Notes under the pieces: model-generated
Database searches by the model: none
What the model was told of the DNA's origin: nothing
Seen by the model: the letters and a program-made list of their open reading frames with translations, nothing else
Program-made: the position numbers and the translations under genes
From: a candidate division WOR-3 bacterium
GTDB taxonomy: Bacteria; Hydrothermota; Tepidihabitantia; SM23-42; JAOAFX01
DNA: 41,613 nt
Direction of reading: 5' to 3'
Assembly (NCBI GenBank): GCA_039802205.1
Contig: JBDRWD010000017.1
Span: 1 to 41,613, forward strand
Part shown: positions 2,990-27,492 of the stretch, in pieces
Numbering within the stretch: the first letter of the stretch is position 1
Layout of the letters: each line of letters starts with the position of its first letter

Positions 2990-3280
2990 CTGAGTCCTCT
3001 CTATTTTTTATATCTTTATGAAGGGACGATGAAACTCATGGGCAAGATTTGTAAGGGTAATCAATAATTTAGCGTTGGATACTTTTGTAGGGCAAGGCTT
3101 TCGCCTTGCATAAATAAAAAATGCCAACCCGAGGGAATAACCGGTAAAATGGTAGGCGCAGGCTTTAGCCTGCGGATAAATGTTTTTAAATCTTAGGGTA
3201 TTTCGCACCCTGAAGGTGCGGTTACCTCTAATAATCCAGCGCGCATAAAATTAATTTGACAAAAAGCGGAGAGGACTCAA
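2990..3280 (+). mobile_element. MITE-like element, copy 1 (complete)
   Basis: A 291-bp non-coding unit is bounded by imperfect 12-bp inverted repeats, CTGAGTCCTCTC at 2990-3001 and GAGAGGACTCAA at 3269-3280. It is flanked by the perfect 9-bp direct repeat GCAATCACA (2981-2989 and 3281-3289), as expected for a target-site duplication. Inside are three REP-like hairpins: 3087-3109 (GGCAAGGC/GCCTTGC), 3152-3174 (GCGCAGGC/GCCTGCG) and about 3204-3221 (CGCACC/GGTGCG, opposite polarity). An outward TTGACA lies near the right end (3256-3261). No transposase is encoded, so it must be moved in trans. A second complete copy lies inverted at 12875-13171, and truncated copies lie near 25352 and 40517. 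The 9-bp duplication suits several IS families (for example IS4 or IS5 groups), but I cannot name the parent. Confidence 0.85.
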
Positions 3281-17696: not shown

Positions 17697-19535
17697 ATGA
17701 AACGCAACATTATAACGCTATTCGTTGTTATTGCTCTGTGCACTGCTTATTCTAATAATCAGGGTGCATACGGGCTATTCCGCACTGAGTCTGCCTGGAA
17801 TGGCGGTGCTGGACATTTCCATATCGGTTGGTTCGGACGCTACTTCACCGAAACAAGGGATGTGGCAATTATCGGTGAGCCAGCAGGCGAAGCAGTCCAT
17901 GGTGGTGGTGATATGTTTTTTGGTCTTGGTTATGCGATTACCGATAACCTGGCATTCAATATTGCGACTTCATTACATGGAGACGGTGTTAACTATACCG
18001 CAACCGATTACAATCGGGCAAGTTTAGGCTGGGGTGATACAAAACTCGGTTTGAAACTGAGCCTTGGTAAAGAAAACTTTGCCTGGGCAATCGGACCGGT
18101 TTTATCATTACCGACAGGTTCAGACCGCGGGACAAGTCTTACACAGAGAAACTACCCGATTTTCGGCGAAGCCTATGGTAATGATGGTGGTGTTTTTCGT
18201 TATTTCTCCAGTGGGGCAATAGATTACGGTGTTTTAATGGGCGTATCTTTTAAGTCCAAACTGATGACCCTTGATTTGAATGGAGGTTACATTGACCGAA
18301 ATAAGAACGATGATGAAATGGGCTGGCGTAATAATTACACGATTTATCGCGCGGCATTGAGCTGGGATCTGGGTAAAATTACTCCGTTTATTGAAGTCGG
18401 TGGAATTGATTTTTGTGGTGAAGATCAGTTCTTTACATTTATTGATGATGATGCAATCTTTGGCGCGAATGAGGTTTATTATACCCCGGGTATCAGTTTC
18501 CGACCTGGTAGATTCAGTTTGAATCTTGCAGTTGATGTTCGCGCCTGGGAAGGATTGAATGACCACGCATTTCCAACTGCATTGACCGACAGCACAAATA
18601 TTACCACCGGCTGGGGTGTTGCACCACCCTGGGCAGTGATTGCAGGATTCTCTTATTGTGTTGATTTCAAACCTGAAGGTCCAAAATTGGCAATTATTGC
18701 TGGAACTGTTGTCAATGATAAGACAGATGAACCACTCGTTGCTAATGTAGCATTTTACCGTGATGGTTCTCTTGTTAAATCCATTACTTCAAATACCTTT
18801 GGTCAATTTGAATTAAAGGAACTTGAACCCGGTAATTATCGCATTGTTGCATCACTTGATGGGTTTTATGATGAGTCAATTGAATTGCTGGTCGGTGTCG
18901 GAGAAAAGATACCTCTGAGTTTGAGATTGAGGCCGGTACCGACCGAAGGTGAACTGACAGTTAATGTAATTGATTTATCAACCCGTCAGCCAATGGTTGC
19001 GAAGGTTACTATCGGTGATGTTGTAGAAGAGATGACATCTTCAATGACCAAGACATTAAAGGCGGGCACATATACGATAAAGGCAAGTGTCACCGATGAG
19101 AATTATCTACCTTATGAGAGAACGGTAACAATAGAAGCGGGCAAAAAATTAGAACTGGAAATTGCACTTGTGAAGAAAGAATTCAAAATTGTATTGCCAG
19201 AAATTTATTTTGAAACGGCAAAGTCCGAGATAAAACCTGAATCGTATCCAGTCCTTGACGATGCCGCGAAAACAATTGCCGAGATCTTTGCAGGGAATGC
19301 GACCACAACTATTGAAGTTCAGGGTCATACCGATAGCAGAGGTTCTGATAGTTACAATCTTAAACTATCTCAAGATAGGGCAAACGCAGTCAAAGATTAT
19401 CTCGTTACTAAACACAATCTGGATGCGAATCGTTTAATTCCCAAGGGATACGGTGAATCCAAACCAGTTGTGCCGAATACTACACCTGAGAATATGGCGA
19501 AGAATCGCAGGGTTGAATTTGTGATAATTAAATAA
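17697..19535 (+). CDS. OmpA-family outer-membrane protein with two carboxypeptidase-regulatory-like domains
   Basis: The encoded 612-residue protein has, in order: a signal peptide; a beta-barrel-like region to about residue 325 (many aromatic and Gly-rich strands); a CarboxypepD_reg-like domain (about 338-415: AGTVVNDKTDEPLVANVAFY, FGQFELKELEPGNYRIVAS); a second one (about 418-495); and an OmpA C-terminal peptidoglycan-binding domain (about 500-612: EIYFETAKSEIKPESYPVLD, EVQGHTDSRGSDSYNLKLSQDRANAVKDYL, RLIPKGYGESKPV, NRRVEF). The peptidoglycan Asp/Arg residues (HTDSRG, NRRVEF) are present. It anchors the outer membrane to the wall. It is a single-gene unit with its own promoter and a strong terminator. 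Confidence 0.9.
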   Translation: MKRNIITLFVVIALCTAYSNNQGAYGLFRTESAWNGGAGHFHIGWFGRYFTETRDVAIIGEPAGEAVHGGGDMFFGLGYAITDNLAFNIATSLHGDGVNYTATDYNRASLGWGDTKLGLKLSLGKENFAWAIGPVLSLPTGSDRGTSLTQRNYPIFGEAYGNDGGVFRYFSSGAIDYGVLMGVSFKSKLMTLDLNGGYIDRNKNDDEMGWRNNYTIYRAALSWDLGKITPFIEVGGIDFCGEDQFFTFIDDDAIFGANEVYYTPGISFRPGRFSLNLAVDVRAWEGLNDHAFPTALTDSTNITTGWGVAPPWAVIAGFSYCVDFKPEGPKLAIIAGTVVNDKTDEPLVANVAFYRDGSLVKSITSNTFGQFELKELEPGNYRIVASLDGFYDESIELLVGVGEKIPLSLRLRPVPTEGELTVNVIDLSTRQPMVAKVTIGDVVEEMTSSMTKTLKAGTYTIKASVTDENYLPYERTVTIEAGKKLELEIALVKKEFKIVLPEIYFETAKSEIKPESYPVLDDAAKTIAEIFAGNATTTIEVQGHTDSRGSDSYNLKLSQDRANAVKDYLVTKHNLDANRLIPKGYGESKPVVPNTTPENMAKNRRVEFVIIK

Positions 19536-19555
19536 GAATCCACTTATATTTTAAA

Positions 19556-19584
19556 AAAGGGGAGGTTTAACACCTCCCCTTTTG
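19556..19584 (+). terminator. Rho-independent terminator after the OmpA-domain gene
   Basis: An 8-bp GC-rich stem GGGGAGGT/ACCTCCCC, extended by AAAA/TTTT, closes a 5-nt loop and is followed by T's. It lies 20 bp after the stop codon and before the mscL ribosome site. Confidence 0.85.
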
Positions 19585-19608
19585 TGGTTTAAATTCTAAG
19601 GAGGTTCT

Positions 19609-20049
19609 ATGTTTTCTGAATTCAAAAAATTTGCAATGCGGGGTAATGTTATTGACCTCGCAGTCGGTTTTATTATGGGCGGTGCCTTTGGTGCGATTGT
19701 AAACTCGCTGGTGAATGATATCATTATGCCGCCTATAGGGTTGCTGCTGAATAAAGTAGACTTTTCAAATCTATTCATAAACCTTTCCGGACAGCCGTTT
19801 ACAAGTCTGGCAGAGGCAAAAAAAGCCGGTGCTCCAACAATAAATTATGGGCTATTTTTAAATACGGTGATTAATTTTATAATTATTGCCTTTGCGCTAT
19901 TTCTCATGATTAAGCAGGTTAACCGATGGACTGCACCTAAACCCCAGGCACCCGCTCCACCGACGACCAAGGAATGCCCATTTTGTTTTACTGCTATTCC
20001 CATTAAAGCAGTGCGCTGCCCTAATTGCACATCTGAATTGAAAGAATAA
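19609..20049 (+). CDS. mscL: Large-conductance mechanosensitive channel with C-terminal zinc ribbon
   Basis: MscL releases solutes on osmotic downshock. The first helix region ([41 protein letters not shown]) and second helix ([22 protein letters not shown]) are canonical. After a Pro/Ala-rich linker the last 30 residues form a zinc-ribbon-like motif, CPFC-x10-CPNC, in place of the usual short helical bundle; similar tails occur in some MscL proteins. AAGGAGG precedes ATG 19609. It lies after a terminator, so it needs its own promoter, which I could not identify. Confidence 0.9.
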
Positions 20050-20056
20050 AAGGGGT

Positions 20057-20113
20057 GTGGGGCAAGGCTTTAGCCTTGCAGACAAAACCAAAATCTCCGT
20101 AGGGCAAGGCTTT
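20057..20113 (+). repeat. REP-like palindrome, one full unit plus a truncated unit
   Basis: The hairpin at 20057-20079 has arms GGCAAGGC/GCCTTGC around a TTTA loop. After the spacer AGACAAAACCAAAATCTCC a second unit starts at 20099 and is cut off after its left arm. The 42-bp period is the same as in the pairs at 21681 and 22733. An unrelated hairpin (GGTTCT/AGAACC) follows near 20127. Confidence 0.8.
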
Positions 20114-20173
20114 CATCAAAAACCGATGGTTCTTTCAGAACCAGAGGTTAGCATTGGAGACAAAACTTTATTC

Positions 20174-20201
20174 TTGAAAAACATAAAAGAATCAGTATAA
20201 T
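20174..20201 (+). promoter_or_regulatory. Promoter of the VIT-family ferritin-like gene
   Basis: TTGAAA (20174-20179), a 16-bp spacer and TATAAT (20196-20201) lie 29 bp before ATG 20231. No clear ribosome site is seen before that ATG. Confidence 0.65.
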
Positions 20202-20230
20202 CTACCTTAGATGCCAAACTGGATATTACT

Positions 20231-21106
20231 ATGCCTGAATTAGATAGCGTGCTTAGAGAAAAAATAATTAATAGCCAGCGAACAGAACTAACCGAGCATT
20301 ATATCTACAAAAAGCTTTCTAATTTTGTTAAAGAAGAAGAGTACCGAAGGATTCTTATGCAAATTTCTGATGAGGAACTCAAACATTATCAATTTTTTAA
20401 ATCCCTGACAGGAGAAGAACTAAAACCAGATGGATTAAAAATCTTTTTTTATGTCGGGGTTGCACGGATTTTTGGTATAAATTTTGGACTAAAACTTATG
20501 GAAAAAGGCGAGGACCTTGCACAGCAAACATATGATGAAATAAAAAAAGTCGCATCTGAAATAGATAATATAATCAAGGATGAGAACAGACACGAAAATG
20601 AATTAATAAGTTTAATAAAAGAGGAACGTCTGAAATATGTAAGTTCAATCGTGCTTGGTTTGAATGATGCCCTGGTAGAAATAAGTGGGGCACTTGTAGG
20701 ATTTTCTCTGGCACTTCAGAAAACACAGATTGTTGGAATTGTTGGCTTGATTACCGGTATCGCTGGTGCCCTTTCCATGGGTGCCTCTTCCTATTTGTCA
20801 GCCAAGGAAGAGACTTCGGATAAGGTTCCAATGAAAGCAGGTTTATACACTGGCCTTGCTTATATCGGCACGATCGTAATTCTTGTTCTACCGTATTTTC
20901 TGTTGAGAAATATTGTTATGTGTTTGGGATTCACAATTATTACTGTATTCCTCCTCATATATATTTTTAATTACTATGTTGCAGTTGCTAAAGAATTGAA
21001 ATTTAGAGATAGATTTCTTGAAATGGCAGGGATAAGCCTTGGTGTTGCGGCGATAAACTTTTTGATAGGCTTGGCAATGCGCAAAGTGTTTGGAATAGAC
21101 ATATAG
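20231..21106 (+). CDS. Ferritin-like/VIT1 fusion membrane protein (iron or manganese handling)
   Basis: The N-terminal ~135 residues form a rubrerythrin/ferritin-like helix bundle: LTEHYIYKKLS, ISDEELKHYQFFKSL and DENRHENELI supply the Glu/His (ExxH) di-iron ligands. The C-terminal part is a VIT1/CCC1-type transporter (IVLGLNDALVEISGALVGFSLAL, TGIAGALSMGASSYLSAKEE). This fusion resembles MbfA-type iron exporters. It probably moves Fe2+ or Mn2+ across the inner membrane in response to iron status. A shorter VIT relative lies downstream, beyond the RAYT gene. Confidence 0.85.
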   Translation: MPELDSVLREKIINSQRTELTEHYIYKKLSNFVKEEEYRRILMQISDEELKHYQFFKSLTGEELKPDGLKIFFYVGVARIFGINFGLKLMEKGEDLAQQTYDEIKKVASEIDNIIKDENRHENELISLIKEERLKYVSSIVLGLNDALVEISGALVGFSLALQKTQIVGIVGLITGIAGALSMGASSYLSAKEETSDKVPMKAGLYTGLAYIGTIVILVLPYFLLRNIVMCLGFTIITVFLLIYIFNYYVAVAKELKFRDRFLEMAGISLGVAAINFLIGLAMRKVFGIDI

Positions 21107-21109
21107 GAT

Positions 21110-21646
21110 ATGATTTCGCCCCATGTAGGGCAAGGCTTTAGCCTTGCGACAAATAAGAAAGAATACTCTACCCCAAAAATCAAATATAAAAAACGTATTC
21201 GTTTGAAAAATTTTGATTATAAAGGAACCTATCGGTATTTTGTTACGCTGTGTACTGCTAATAAAGGCATGATTTTCGTAAAAAAATCAATTGTGGATTG
21301 GTTAATAAAATTACTTCGTGGGTCATCGGAATCTTTTGGGTTCAAAGTTTGGGCATATTGCTTTATGCCCGATCATTTACATATACTAATAGAGGGGATA
21401 AGAGAAAATTCTGATTTTAGAAAATTTATCGGTCAATACAAACAGATAACAGCATATTATTACAGAAAAATAAAAGGGCGAAGATTATGGCAGATTGGAT
21501 ATTATGAACATGTGCTTCGTAAAAATGAAGATACGATCGCCGTAGCAAAATACATTTTGGGTAATCCTGTGAGAAGGGGATTGGTAGATGATTATAAGAG
21601 TTATGAATTTCTTGGGTCTTTTGAGTTTGATGTTAAGCAAACCTAA
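21110..21646 (+). CDS. REP-associated tyrosine transposase (RAYT, Y1_Tnp family)
   Basis: The encoded 178-residue protein contains the Y1 transposase core: DYKGTYRYFVTLCT, the HUH motif in YCFMPDHLHILIEG, the catalytic-Tyr helix KQITAYYYRKIKG, then LWQIGYYEHVLRKNEDTIAVAKYILGNPVRRGLV. Such enzymes cleave single strands at REP palindromes. A REP (21125-21147) lies inside the 5' end, encoding VGQGFSLA at residues 6-13. An inverted REP (21637-21659) overlaps the stop codon (TAA within its arm), and two more follow. The start is uncertain because no in-frame ATG is closer to the core; ATG 21110 is used, four bases after the VIT1 stop. It interrupts a pair of VIT genes. Confidence 0.85.
   Translation: MISPHVGQGFSLATNKKEYSTPKIKYKKRIRLKNFDYKGTYRYFVTLCTANKGMIFVKKSIVDWLIKLLRGSSESFGFKVWAYCFMPDHLHILIEGIRENSDFRKFIGQYKQITAYYYRKIKGRRLWQIGYYEHVLRKNEDTIAVAKYILGNPVRRGLVDDYKSYEFLGSFEFDVKQT
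21125..21147 (+). repeat. REP palindrome inside the 5' end of the RAYT gene
   Basis: Perfect arms GGCAAGGC/GCCTTGC with a TTTA loop are preceded by GTA-G. In the RAYT frame it reads VGQGFSLA. It is the upstream REP of the RAYT unit. Confidence 0.85.
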
Positions 21647-21659
21647 AGGTTTGTCCTAC
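21637..21659 (-). repeat. Inverted, diverged REP overlapping the RAYT stop codon
   Basis: Read on the minus strand, GTAGGACAAACC-TTTA-GGTTTGC has the same architecture as the other REPs but with compensating arm changes (AACC/GGTT instead of AGGC/GCCT), so the stem is preserved. It faces the upstream REP, giving the convergent pair expected around a RAYT gene. The RAYT stop codon is in its first arm. Confidence 0.7.
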
Positions 21660-21680
21660 ATGTTGAAATATTCCAGTGAT

Positions 21681-21745
21681 GTAGGGCAAGGCTTTAGCCT
21701 TGCAGATAAAACCAAAATCTCCGTAGGGCAAGGCTTTAGCCTTGC
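21681..21745 (+). repeat. REP pair, 42-bp period
   Basis: Two identical hairpins (21681-21703 and 21723-21745) are separated by AGATAAAACCAAAATCTCC. The second lies directly before the ribosome site (AAAGGAG) of the next gene, so an RNA hairpin would form at the start of that mRNA if transcription comes from upstream. Confidence 0.85.
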
Positions 21746-21762
21746 GAACAAAGGAGCTATTT

Positions 21763-22239
21763 ATGCTTAAACATTCATTAAAAACCGGATTTAGTTTTGG
21801 CTCAACATCCGGAATAATAACAACCCTGGGGTTAATGGTGGGACTCCATTCAGGAACCCATTCAAAAATTGTAGTTATCGGTGGTATCCTGACAATTGCA
21901 ATAGCCGATGCCTTCTCGGATGCCCTCGGTATTCACATCTCTGAAGAGTCCGAAAATAGACATACCACAAAAGAGATATGGGAATCAACGATAATGACAT
22001 TTATTGCTAAATTCTTATTTGCCCTTACATTCCTTGTTCCGGTTTTAATCTTTTCTCTTGCTACAGCAATCATTGTCAGTGTTATATGGGGGCTTTTCCT
22101 CATCTGCCTTTTCAGTTTTATGATGGGCAAAGAACAAAATTCCAATCCTTGGACGATAGTAGGAGAACATTTATTTATCACGATTGTGGTTATAGTCATA
22201 ACCCATTTCATTGGTGACTGGATCGCGACATTTAAATGA
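21763..22239 (+). CDS. VIT1/CCC1-related membrane protein
   Basis: The protein (158 residues from ATG 21763) has about four hydrophobic helices. SFGSTSGIITTLGLMVGL and GGILTIAIADAFSDALGIHISEESE resemble the first helices of VIT1/CCC1 transporters, in which these polar helices form the metal path; the cytoplasmic metal-binding domain is absent. AAAGGAG lies six bases before the ATG, preferred over an upstream in-frame start inside the REP. With the gene at 20231 it forms a pair of iron/manganese transporter relatives split by the RAYT unit. Function otherwise unknown. Confidence 0.75.
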   Translation: MLKHSLKTGFSFGSTSGIITTLGLMVGLHSGTHSKIVVIGGILTIAIADAFSDALGIHISEESENRHTTKEIWESTIMTFIAKFLFALTFLVPVLIFSLATAIIVSVIWGLFLICLFSFMMGKEQNSNPWTIVGEHLFITIVVIVITHFIGDWIATFK

Positions 22240-22402
22240 AAGGACCAAAAATGGCGAAAAAGGACTAAAGAGGTCAAAAAGGCGAAAGATGACTAAAGGG
22301 CAGAAGGCGATAAAAAGGGTAAAAAAAGGAAAAGAAGGGTAAACAAGGGTGAAGAAGGGATGTTGAATTTAGGTATTTAGGAATTTAGGTGTTTAGGTAT
22401 TT
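22240..22402 (+). repeat. Purine-rich tract and 8-bp TTTAGG array
   Basis: From about 22240 to 22360 the plus strand is nearly all purine, built of loose GGNNNAAARRNG units. TTTAGG then occurs four times at an exact 8-bp step (22368, 22376, 22384, 22392). No gene is seen; the array ends just before the ribosome site (AAAGGGGG) of the gene at 22421. Confidence 0.75.
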
Positions 22403-22420
22403 TTTTCTAAAGGGGGTTAC

Positions 22421-25264
22421 ATGGCCACATTCATTTTATTTTTGACCCTGCCCTTACCACAACCTGATACCTTATGGAAGGTAGAGCAGAAATATATTTT
22501 TGAAGGTTTGGAACTTTTAAATTTATCAAAAATTGACTTAGAATATGATAAACACTGGATTCAGGATAGTTTTCGGCTAAAGGTCATTAAAAATTTAATG
22601 GATAAACCAATGTCGGTTCCTGATTATGTTTTACATTCGGGAAACACAATAAAAAATTTAAAAACCCCATCGGATTATATTAAATTTTGTGCTGGAGAGA
22701 TTATTGGGCAAAATCTATCTAGGACATTCAATGTAGGGCAAGGCGTCAGCCTTGCAGACAAAACCAAAATACCCGTAGGGCAAGGCTTTAGCCTTGCAGA
22801 ACTTAAATCGGATGTTTTGATCTCTTTAATAAAAGATGTCTATACGGACACAAAAAAACATCTTGATAAGGCATTTATGAAAATCACACCCGAACAAAAA
22901 GATAGTCTAATCTACACCGCCCCATCACTCTGGGCAGATGAGGCCGACTCTATTGAGCGTGGTTATGCGGGTGCTCTGCACAAAGAATTTGGCATTGAGC
23001 GTGACACCGGGACCACGCTTGAAACTGTTGAATTATTAAAATTAGCCAAAAAGATAGATATTTGTGAAATACATTGTGCGGGTATCATTCTTGCCCAAGG
23101 AATTGAAAAGATAAAAGCGATTGCTGAAAAATTATCTAAGCAAGAAAATCTATCTTACAAAGAGATATCAGGGGTTAAAGGACTTGTTTACGATTCTTTT
23201 GAACTGCCCGGCGGATTTAAGGGTGTTATCGGTGGTATTGATGACAATATCTATTACGATGATTTTGCAGTAATCATTGATCTGGGCGGCAATGATACAT
23301 ATCTTGGTCGGTGTGCCGGTGCGGTCGGAGAATTGAATACTCCGGTGAGCTTTGTCATTGACCTTTCTGGTGATGATGTATATAGGAATTATAACAAACT
23401 TGTCAATCAGGGTGCTGGTTTATTTGGTGCAGGGATACTATGGGATTTATCAGGGAATGATACATATACTGGATTCCATATCAGTCAGGGTGCAGGATTA
23501 TTCGGAATCGGTATGCTCATTGACGAAGAAGGTTTTGATAATTATCGGGGTGGTTACTTTGTTCAGGGAGCGGGAAATTTTGGCTCAGGAATTTTAATTG
23601 ATTATAAAGAAGATGACATTTATCATTCATATTGTTGGGCACAAGGGATGGGGGGTGTTTGGGGATATGGACTACTTTTTGATAAAGATGGTGATGATCT
23701 GTATTATGCGGGTGGCAAATATCTCCATATGCCCTTGGATCCTGACCAGTATCGTTCATTTGCCCAGGGTTTTGGTTTTGGTTGGCGGGATGTAGCATCA
23801 GGTGGGATTGGATTTTTGTATGATTGTTCTGGGAATGATAAATATATCTCTGAGGTCTATGGGCAGGCAACCTCATACTGGTTTGCACTCGGTATGCTCC
23901 TTGATGAACAGGGAAATGATTTATATTCTGCAGCCCAATATTCTCAGGGTGCAGGTATACATTTGTCAGTCGGTGGTCTTCTGGATTTAGAAGGGGATGA
24001 CCATTATTTTAGTAGATTTGGTCCTGCCCAGGGCGAAGGTCATGATGTGGCAGTTGGCTGGCTTTTAGATAAGGACGGTGATGATGTATACTATGCATCA
24101 GGTGGGCAGGGGATAGGTCTTACAAACTCTGTTGGAATATTTGTTGATACCAGGGGTAATGATGATTACTGTTCAAGGGAAGGGATGAGTCAAGGGGGTG
24201 CAAACTGGTCAAGGGGGACTGGTGGGATAGGTTTGTTTATTGATTTGCAGGGTGAAGATAGATATGCAGAGAAAGACAAGGGTAAGAATAATCATATTTG
24301 GACTTCTGGCACCTATGCCTTAGGAATGGACCTTGAGGCAGTAGAACCGAAAAAAGAACCCTGGGAAGATACGATTACCACATTCCCCGAACTTGATACA
24401 ATGCAAAGTGATTCCGCGAAAATGGCAAGGCTTTTTTATTATGGTTCGTTGTGGGAGGTCCGGGCGGATATTCCTAAGGCAAAGACAGGCAGAAGGATCT
24501 TAATAAATGAGTTCAAAGAAAGGGCTGTTGAGTATATCTTTAAAAATGAGATGCGGACATTTGATGGTCTCAAACTTCGGGCGATTGAAGAAGTTTTCAA
24601 GGCATTCAAGGACACCGCTGCTTTTTATTTATACCAGGGTCTGCATAATGAAAATGATACAATTGTCAGAAATTCTATTTATCTTTTTGGACAACTCGAA
24701 TACACAAAGGCAAAAGATACATTGAGATTGATGCTTGAGAAGAAGCCCGAAGATAAGGTTGCTGGTGTTTTGATCTATACACTCGGGAAATTGAAGGATA
24801 CCCTTGCGATTCAAATTTTTAATCAATACTACAGACACAAGAACGAAAGAATGAGACTGCGTGTTGCTGAGGCGCTGCAGAATATTAAAGACACAACAGG
24901 ATTGCCGATTTTGGTTAAACTTCTAACGGATTCATCTTATATTGTAAAAGTTGCAGCAATGGAAGGAATGGCACAACTCGGCAAATACGCGCTGGATAGG
25001 GTAGAGGGAGAATTAAAGACCGTGCGGAAAGAACACTATCTTGCCCTTTTAATAAAGACAATGGCGAAGATATACGCAAAAATGGATAACAAGGAAAAGA
25101 CAACTGAGTACAAGAAACATCTTGCTGAAATTGTTAAGAAGTATCTCAAATCTGATTACCCAGCACTGAAAAAAGAAACACAGAAATTTATTGATTTAAT
25201 CGAAGGCAGAGGTCTGCTGGAGTCTGAAGAATTATTTCTTTTTCCCGAAGATATTATGGATTAG
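22421..25264 (+). CDS. Beta-solenoid repeat protein with C-terminal HEAT repeats and an in-frame REP insertion
   Basis: This 947-residue protein is not one I can name. A short hydrophobic N-terminus may be a signal. Residues 105-126 are encoded by two REP palindromes (VGQGVSLA...VGQGFSLA). From about 287 to 615 there are twelve ~27-30-residue repeats with the core D-x2-G-[ND]-D-x-Y and QGAG-x-G-x2-L; examples are DLSGNDTYTG, DKDGDDLYYA, DEQGNDLYSA, DTRGNDDYCS. Their period and Asp/Gly pattern suggest a calcium-binding beta-roll or solenoid. From about 715 to 900 come HEAT-like helical repeats (AEALQNIKDTTGLPILVKLL, AMEGMAQLGKYAL). This suggests a secreted or envelope scaffold. The ribosome site GGGGG before ATG 22421 is moderate. 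Confidence 0.75.
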   Translation: MATFILFLTLPLPQPDTLWKVEQKYIFEGLELLNLSKIDLEYDKHWIQDSFRLKVIKNLMDKPMSVPDYVLHSGNTIKNLKTPSDYIKFCAGEIIGQNLSRTFNVGQGVSLADKTKIPVGQGFSLAELKSDVLISLIKDVYTDTKKHLDKAFMKITPEQKDSLIYTAPSLWADEADSIERGYAGALHKEFGIERDTGTTLETVELLKLAKKIDICEIHCAGIILAQGIEKIKAIAEKLSKQENLSYKEISGVKGLVYDSFELPGGFKGVIGGIDDNIYYDDFAVIIDLGGNDTYLGRCAGAVGELNTPVSFVIDLSGDDVYRNYNKLVNQGAGLFGAGILWDLSGNDTYTGFHISQGAGLFGIGMLIDEEGFDNYRGGYFVQGAGNFGSGILIDYKEDDIYHSYCWAQGMGGVWGYGLLFDKDGDDLYYAGGKYLHMPLDPDQYRSFAQGFGFGWRDVASGGIGFLYDCSGNDKYISEVYGQATSYWFALGMLLDEQGNDLYSAAQYSQGAGIHLSVGGLLDLEGDDHYFSRFGPAQGEGHDVAVGWLLDKDGDDVYYASGGQGIGLTNSVGIFVDTRGNDDYCSREGMSQGGANWSRGTGGIGLFIDLQGEDRYAEKDKGKNNHIWTSGTYALGMDLEAVEPKKEPWEDTITTFPELDTMQSDSAKMARLFYYGSLWEVRADIPKAKTGRRILINEFKERAVEYIFKNEMRTFDGLKLRAIEEVFKAFKDTAAFYLYQGLHNENDTIVRNSIYLFGQLEYTKAKDTLRLMLEKKPEDKVAGVLIYTLGKLKDTLAIQIFNQYYRHKNERMRLRVAEALQNIKDTTGLPILVKLLTDSSYIVKVAAMEGMAQLGKYALDRVEGELKTVRKEHYLALLIKTMAKIYAKMDNKEKTTEYKKHLAEIVKKYLKSDYPALKKETQKFIDLIEGRGLLESEELFLFPEDIMD
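22733..22797 (+). repeat. REP pair inside a protein-coding gene, in frame
   Basis: Two REP hairpins (22733-22755 and 22775-22797) have the same 42-bp period and spacer type as at 21681, with a few substitutions (GTC loop, ACCC spacer end). They encode residues 105-126 of the solenoid/HEAT protein. Of the three forward frames only this one lacks TAG, so the insertion is in the sole tolerated forward frame. Confidence 0.85.
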
Positions 25265-25351
25265 AAAATAAATAATGTGAGGCGAGGTTCCAGCTTAAAG
25301 GAAATAGAAGATGTAAATCTAAAGAGACTGTTTAATGATTCAAATTTTGTT

Positions 25352-25435
25352 GATAGCCGCATTCTGAAGGTAGCGACTACCTCTAATAATCCAGCGCGCA
25401 TAAAATTAATTTGACAAAAAACAGAGGGGCCTAGA
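25352..25435 (+). repeat. MITE-like element, copy 3 (right end only)
   Basis: The last ~80 bp match the right part of copy 1, including CTCTAATAATCCAGCGCGCA and TTTGACA; the terminal inverted repeat is diverged (CAGAGGGGCCTAGAG). The left part is missing. The bases before it (about 25279-25351) stay open in one frame (SSLKEIEDVNLKRLFNDSNF) and may be a fragment of an unidentified gene. It lies between the solenoid gene and the ligA promoter. Confidence 0.7.
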
Positions 25436-25448
25436 GAATGCTGCAGTC

Positions 25449-27492
<2,044 letters not shown>

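Follow-up and report, generated by a model that had tools for sequence, protein, structure and literature searches.

In-frame GTAG-type REP sequences in a HEAT-repeat gene of a WOR-3 bacterium and in type IX sorting domains of this bacterium and its relatives

Results

Genes and REP elements at the locus

The window analysed here is the whole stretch of 41,613 nucleotides of the WOR-3 contig (phylum Caldifarciminota in the NCBI naming), from the genome that we call G000. The locus under study comprises a host gene with an in-frame REP pair, a gene for a RAYT (REP-associated tyrosine transposase) and several related REP elements, which are as follows in window coordinates:

20057-20157, + strand: composite of a REP, the same spacer as in the in-gene dimer and a degenerate REP of the long type (59 nt); marks the left border of the segment missing in the sister genome G001
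20231-21106, + strand: Rubrerythrin-like/VIT1 gene, which together with the RAYT gene makes up the segment missing in G001
21110-21646, + strand: RAYT ORF (NF047646, 95.9 bits, cutoff 80; Y1_Tnp, 46.1 bits)
21125-21147, + strand: REP at the 5' end of the RAYT ORF, found by copy search and read in frame near the N-terminus
21681-21745, + strand: REP dimer 3' of the RAYT, 60/65 identical to the in-gene dimer, spacer included
22421-25264, + strand: host gene (ORF of 947 aa) with a helical N-terminal part, a Gly/Asp-rich repeat middle and C-terminal HEAT repeats
22733-22755, + strand: first in-gene REP, GTAGGGCAAGGCGTCAGCCTTGC, 2 mismatches, residues VGQGVSLA
22756-22774, + strand: spacer of the in-gene dimer, AGACAAAACCAAAATACCC
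22775-22797, + strand: second in-gene REP, a perfect copy, residues VGQGFSLA

The host protein matches HEAT_2 at 767-849 (E 8e-10), and homologues of its gene are present in 123 of 150 relatives. A single-sequence model of its N-terminus was poor (pLDDT 35) and placed the insert within predicted coil. The non-coding tract directly 5' of the gene (22240-22420) is purine-rich and ~97% identical to G001, an identity that exceeds that of most neighbouring coding DNA.

The two GTAG-type hairpins at 22733-22797 have a period of 42 nt from start to start and encode residues 105-126 of the host protein, as a first-pass annotation of this DNA had proposed from the letters alone. Its further statements that the in-gene unit has diverged slightly and that a RAYT gene lies 1.1 kb away agree with the comparison to the dimer at 21681-21745 and with the 1,087 nt measured from the end of the RAYT ORF to the insert. 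Of the forward frames of the in-gene dimer, VGQGVSLADKTKIPVGQGFSL alone is open while the other two hold stops, and the open one is indeed the frame used; two reverse frames, which the annotation did not mention, are open as well.

Each REP unit consists of GTAG, a G and an 8-bp hairpin, and the 23-nt unit folds with -10.6 kcal/mol (z -2.6). The REP sequence GTAGGGCAAGGCTTTAGCCTTGC is found seven times in the window with 3 or fewer mismatches, where shuffles predict 0.00 copies, and 56 times genome-wide with no more than 1 mismatch, the reversed control giving 0; the genome stretches examined hold 57 short-type REPs, plus variants with compensated stems. A short palindrome with the GTAG tag at its base, numerous dispersed genomic copies and a cognate RAYT with the same REP on both sides place these elements in the GTAG class of REPs. 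An Rfam scan of 19500-25500 returned zero matches. A second hairpin type, GTAGGCGCAGGCTTTAGCCTGCG (e.g. at window position 3152), occurs in 15 copies in the G000 stretches examined, ~60-75 nt from copies of the first type, and its stem is different yet fully paired. If the predicted starts are right, the RAYT ORFs of G000 (window 21110-21147) and of its congener G002 (L134) include their own REPs in frame close to the N-terminus, as one and three copies, respectively.

Relatives show an insertion in a constrained gene

The sister genome G001, which belongs to the same genus, carries a REP at the same nucleotide position of the host gene (~91% nucleotide identity), and the insert junctions are identical on both sides in G000 and G001. 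The insert is found in these two genomes only, being absent from the congener G002, from G003 (same family) and from more distant homologues; the region spans 36 residues in G002 and G003 versus 38 plus a 22-residue insert in G000. The genomes compared are metagenome-assembled or were treated as such, and the insert is backed by two separate assemblies. The alignment with homologues, which the first-pass annotation had itself suggested, therefore bears out its central claim of a REP pair in frame within a coding gene: relatives carry the gene without the element, and the frame has been kept, as in the coding palindromic elements of Rickettsia (RPE).

Between G000 and G001, codons 1-102 have an omega of 0.23 and those beyond the insert one of 0.08, and thus the codons before the insert are translated and both sides are constrained; the host gene is under purifying selection on either side of the insert. 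A translation start after the insert, which the annotation had named as an objection to its own reading, was looked for and rejected, since the part before the insert also has homology from the start codon onwards in relatives.

The neighbourhood differs between the sister genomes. G001 lacks the segment with the rubrerythrin/VIT-like and RAYT genes (window 20057-21745, with related REP elements at its borders) and has a clean junction there, where the flank to the left of its intergenic REP is that of one G000 element and the flank to the right is that of the other. In G000, the dimer spacer AGAYAAAACCAAAATMYCC is present three times (20078, 21702 and 22754), always at this locus (20078-22781); two of them flank the RAYT-containing segment and the third lies in the host gene, and a search of G001-G003 found none. 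The intergenic and coding REPs of G001 are identical to each other; however, the long type is common in that genome (17 copies), so that copying within the locus can be diagnosed from the G000 spacer alone. The first insertion cannot be assigned to the neighbouring RAYT, since G001 carries the insert but no RAYT at the locus, and the local RAYT as its sole source was rejected. There may be a link between the nearby RAYT and the form that the insert now takes in G000.

One reading frame and one recurrent host domain

Short REP sites were collected at up to 3 mismatches from G000-G003 and the distant genome G087, and counted as intragenic with at least 20 residues on each side of the REP. By this count, 22 of 177 distinct sites lie within ORFs of at least 180 aa, and all 22 are read in sense frame 0 (VGQGFSLA). 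The unit is open in this frame at 174 of the 177 sites, in anti-0 at 177 and in anti-1 at 173. Under equal use of these three open frames, the chance of such uniform use is ~2e-5 when ~10 events are counted, as related copies are not independent. The frame-bias test on VGQGFSLA units in genes, again a suggestion of the annotation, thus yielded one sense frame where three of six are open.

In-frame short or long REPs were found in 19 host genes (RAYT left out), 14 of which carry them in a type IX sorting domain, the C-terminal secretion tag of exported proteins, although these 14 cases may not all be independent. The sorting-domain REPs sit in one loop, between the strand ending ...IP and IYDxxGR. 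The remaining hosts are:

the window gene in G000
its orthologue in G001
L021, a sigma-54 response regulator, with the REP before the Fis domain
L083, a protein of G003, with the REP just after an apparent signal peptide
L235:1501-1523, an AsnB-like protein of G087, with VGQGFSLE in frame in a linker

Sorting domains were called with TIGR04183 and PF18962, and most hosts scored above cutoff, with L080 just below (22.3 vs 23). TIGR04183 has 149 matches in G000, covering ~1.2% of the genome, and the sorting domain accounts for 4 of the 6 hosts of this genome (P ~3e-7, or ~2e-5 if L027 and L093 are counted once). In a model of a G087-type sorting domain (pLDDT 88.6), residues F27-Y32 form a strand, FSLAIY following as a strand after the VGQG loop, and the solved T9SS C-terminal domains 8qb1 and 5ag8 are among the fold matches. 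At the REP position, a paralogue on the same contig that has no REP reads VSLAIYD, which indicates that the REP replaces the native strand start; the model suggests that the next beta-strand can begin with FSLA. A pattern scan of 84,980 species gave seven matches. Three lie in frame in a sorting domain (two contigs of one genome and one of SKW300), and the other four are out-of-frame chance matches, three of these in Candidatus Scalindua. We therefore rejected a spread of sorting-domain insertion over many phyla.

That most of the sorting-domain cases arose by the copying of whole sorting domains between genes, with few entries of REPs, has a chance that we put somewhat short of even: near-identical domain segments occur in different proteins (L004, L067, L121, L249), L027 and L093 are paralogues, and the orthologues L004 and L269 differ downstream of a repeat tract inside the domain. 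Several entries are favoured by the distinct flanks in L012, L140/L158, L062 and L080, as well as in G087, a distant member of the family (L172, L174).

Among the subtilases, the orthologues L004 (G000) and L269 (G001) are nearly the same as far as CAAATCCCAAAATCCAAAC; beyond it, within the sorting domain, they diverge in a way that looks like a swap of the domain end. The sorting-domain loops of L258, L269, L062 and L080 contain other, apparently repeat-derived peptides (AIRNPKSEISL, HLTIQPFNQ).

Probable exchange of REP types without loss of frame

In the host gene, the insert is a 65-nt dimer in G000 (VGQGVSLADKTKIPVGQGFSLA) and a 59-nt long REP in G001 (VGQGFLQEPMVLSEPEVSLA). Differences in type are seen elsewhere too: the orthologues L012 (G000) and L246 (G001) have closely similar flanks and an exact 36-nt indel inside the REP, the step from the short to the long type, and the same 36-nt REP difference separates L121 and L249, which are paralogous sorting domains in G001. 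By simple arithmetic, units of 23, 59 and 65 nt each leave a remainder of 2 when divided by 3, and an exchange of one type for another is thus frame-neutral. These comparisons suggest that intragenic REPs have been swapped for other versions while the gene stayed unbroken, and we infer that the equal modulo-3 length matters for REP survival.

Discussion

Our preferred reading, to which we give a probability of roughly 75%, is that a GTAG-type REP was inserted in frame in the ancestor of G000 and G001, was kept as a tolerated passenger and was later rewritten in place. In this common ancestor, the REP would have entered a variable part of the host gene, presumably through the action of a RAYT, and would have been retained owing to its placement on the sense strand, in the stop-free VGQGFSLA frame, and to a net length that is a multiple of three. 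Later, a REP from elsewhere may have overwritten the coding copy, by conversion or by template switching at shared hairpin arms, the donor in G000 probably being one of the two REP elements that flank the RAYT segment; swaps among 23-, 59- and 65-nt units would have left the frame unshifted. This rewriting is read from end states, as the genomes compared hold neither the ancestor nor an intermediate.

Taken alone, the host-gene picture fits rewriting in place and two insertions at one preferred target alike. Separate insertions of different REPs into the same target in G000 and G001 would explain why the two inserts differ in type, and site reuse is possible given that IS200/IS605-type enzymes choose their targets by short guide sequences (PMC8266576). 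We nevertheless consider this unlikely, in view of the identical junctions on both sides and of the type differences at other orthologous and paralogous REP sites, once as a clean 36-nt indel within the unit.

The first-pass annotation had called the insert domesticated, and here our results depart from it: the in-frame insertion, the open forward frame, the nearby RAYT and the likeness to Rickettsia elements all stand, but only two sister genomes have the insert and the peptide that it encodes was not conserved after insertion, so that nothing indicates that it gained a function. An open frame in two species and purifying selection around the insert are what one would expect had the REP-encoded peptide been given, and kept for, a function in the host protein; with peptides of the sister species wholly different except at their ends, and close homologues that manage without any, such domestication seems improbable. 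We read the in-gene insert, from these sequence comparisons, as a tolerated passenger that was rewritten in place. An origin as a native peptide of the protein or as a chance likeness to a REP can be practically dismissed, as a VGQGFSLA-type peptide is missing from all homologues outside G000 and G001 and shuffles yield 0.00 expected copies.

A wider proposal is that REPs of this family act as frame-neutral, exchangeable coding cassettes that recurrently occupy one sorting-domain loop, are replaced by one another there and add diversity to the tags of exported proteins. It builds on the shared modulo-3 length of the three unit types and on a single frame that reads as a loop plus a beta-strand, and we hold it as tentative and on balance doubtful.

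In-frame intragenic REPs are known from Rickettsia and, for the GTAG class, from Opitutus and others (PMC3733652), and the Rickettsia likeness drawn by the annotation therefore extends to GTAG REPs outside that genus. Di Nocera et al. (2013, PMC3733652) describe intragenic GTAG-class REPs that share with ours the GTAG tag, the hairpin, a genomic RAYT and the occurrence of dimers within ORFs, where they code for 20 to 30 residues. The hosts stressed in that survey are DNA synthesis and repair proteins, e.g., in Opitutus terrae, whereas here they are mainly type IX sorting domains; compared with what is described there, our REPs are always read in one frame and their types are exchanged at the same coding site. 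The RPE likewise are palindromic repeats in frame within genes, but R. conorii RPE-4 and RPE-6 are assigned to the CGTC superfamily in PMC3733652, and are set apart by their tag from the GTAG class with RAYT genes seen here. Among the Group 3 REPtrons of Stenotrophomonas and Marinomonas (PMC8266576), the S. maltophilia REPs resemble ours in their 23-nt length, GTAG and perfect 8-bp stem, and the Marinomonas REPs do so in their TTTA loop; this likeness is one of REP features, and those REPs were studied as DNA substrates, whereas here they are considered as coding sequence. Gene conversion has long been proposed for REP evolution, going by the title of Higgins et al. 1988 as cited in PMC8266576. 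A literature search of partial coverage found no paper tying REPs to type IX sorting domains, and the recurrent host domain, the exclusive frame and the frame-neutral switching appear to be new.

REPs are usually defined as extragenic elements, while in the family described here one reading frame is safe, one protein domain recurs as host, and there is evidence of coding copies exchanged for other REP types with the frame intact. Comparison of close relatives could reveal the ways in which REPs move and undergo conversion, and in which secreted proteins gain sequence from a selfish repeat.
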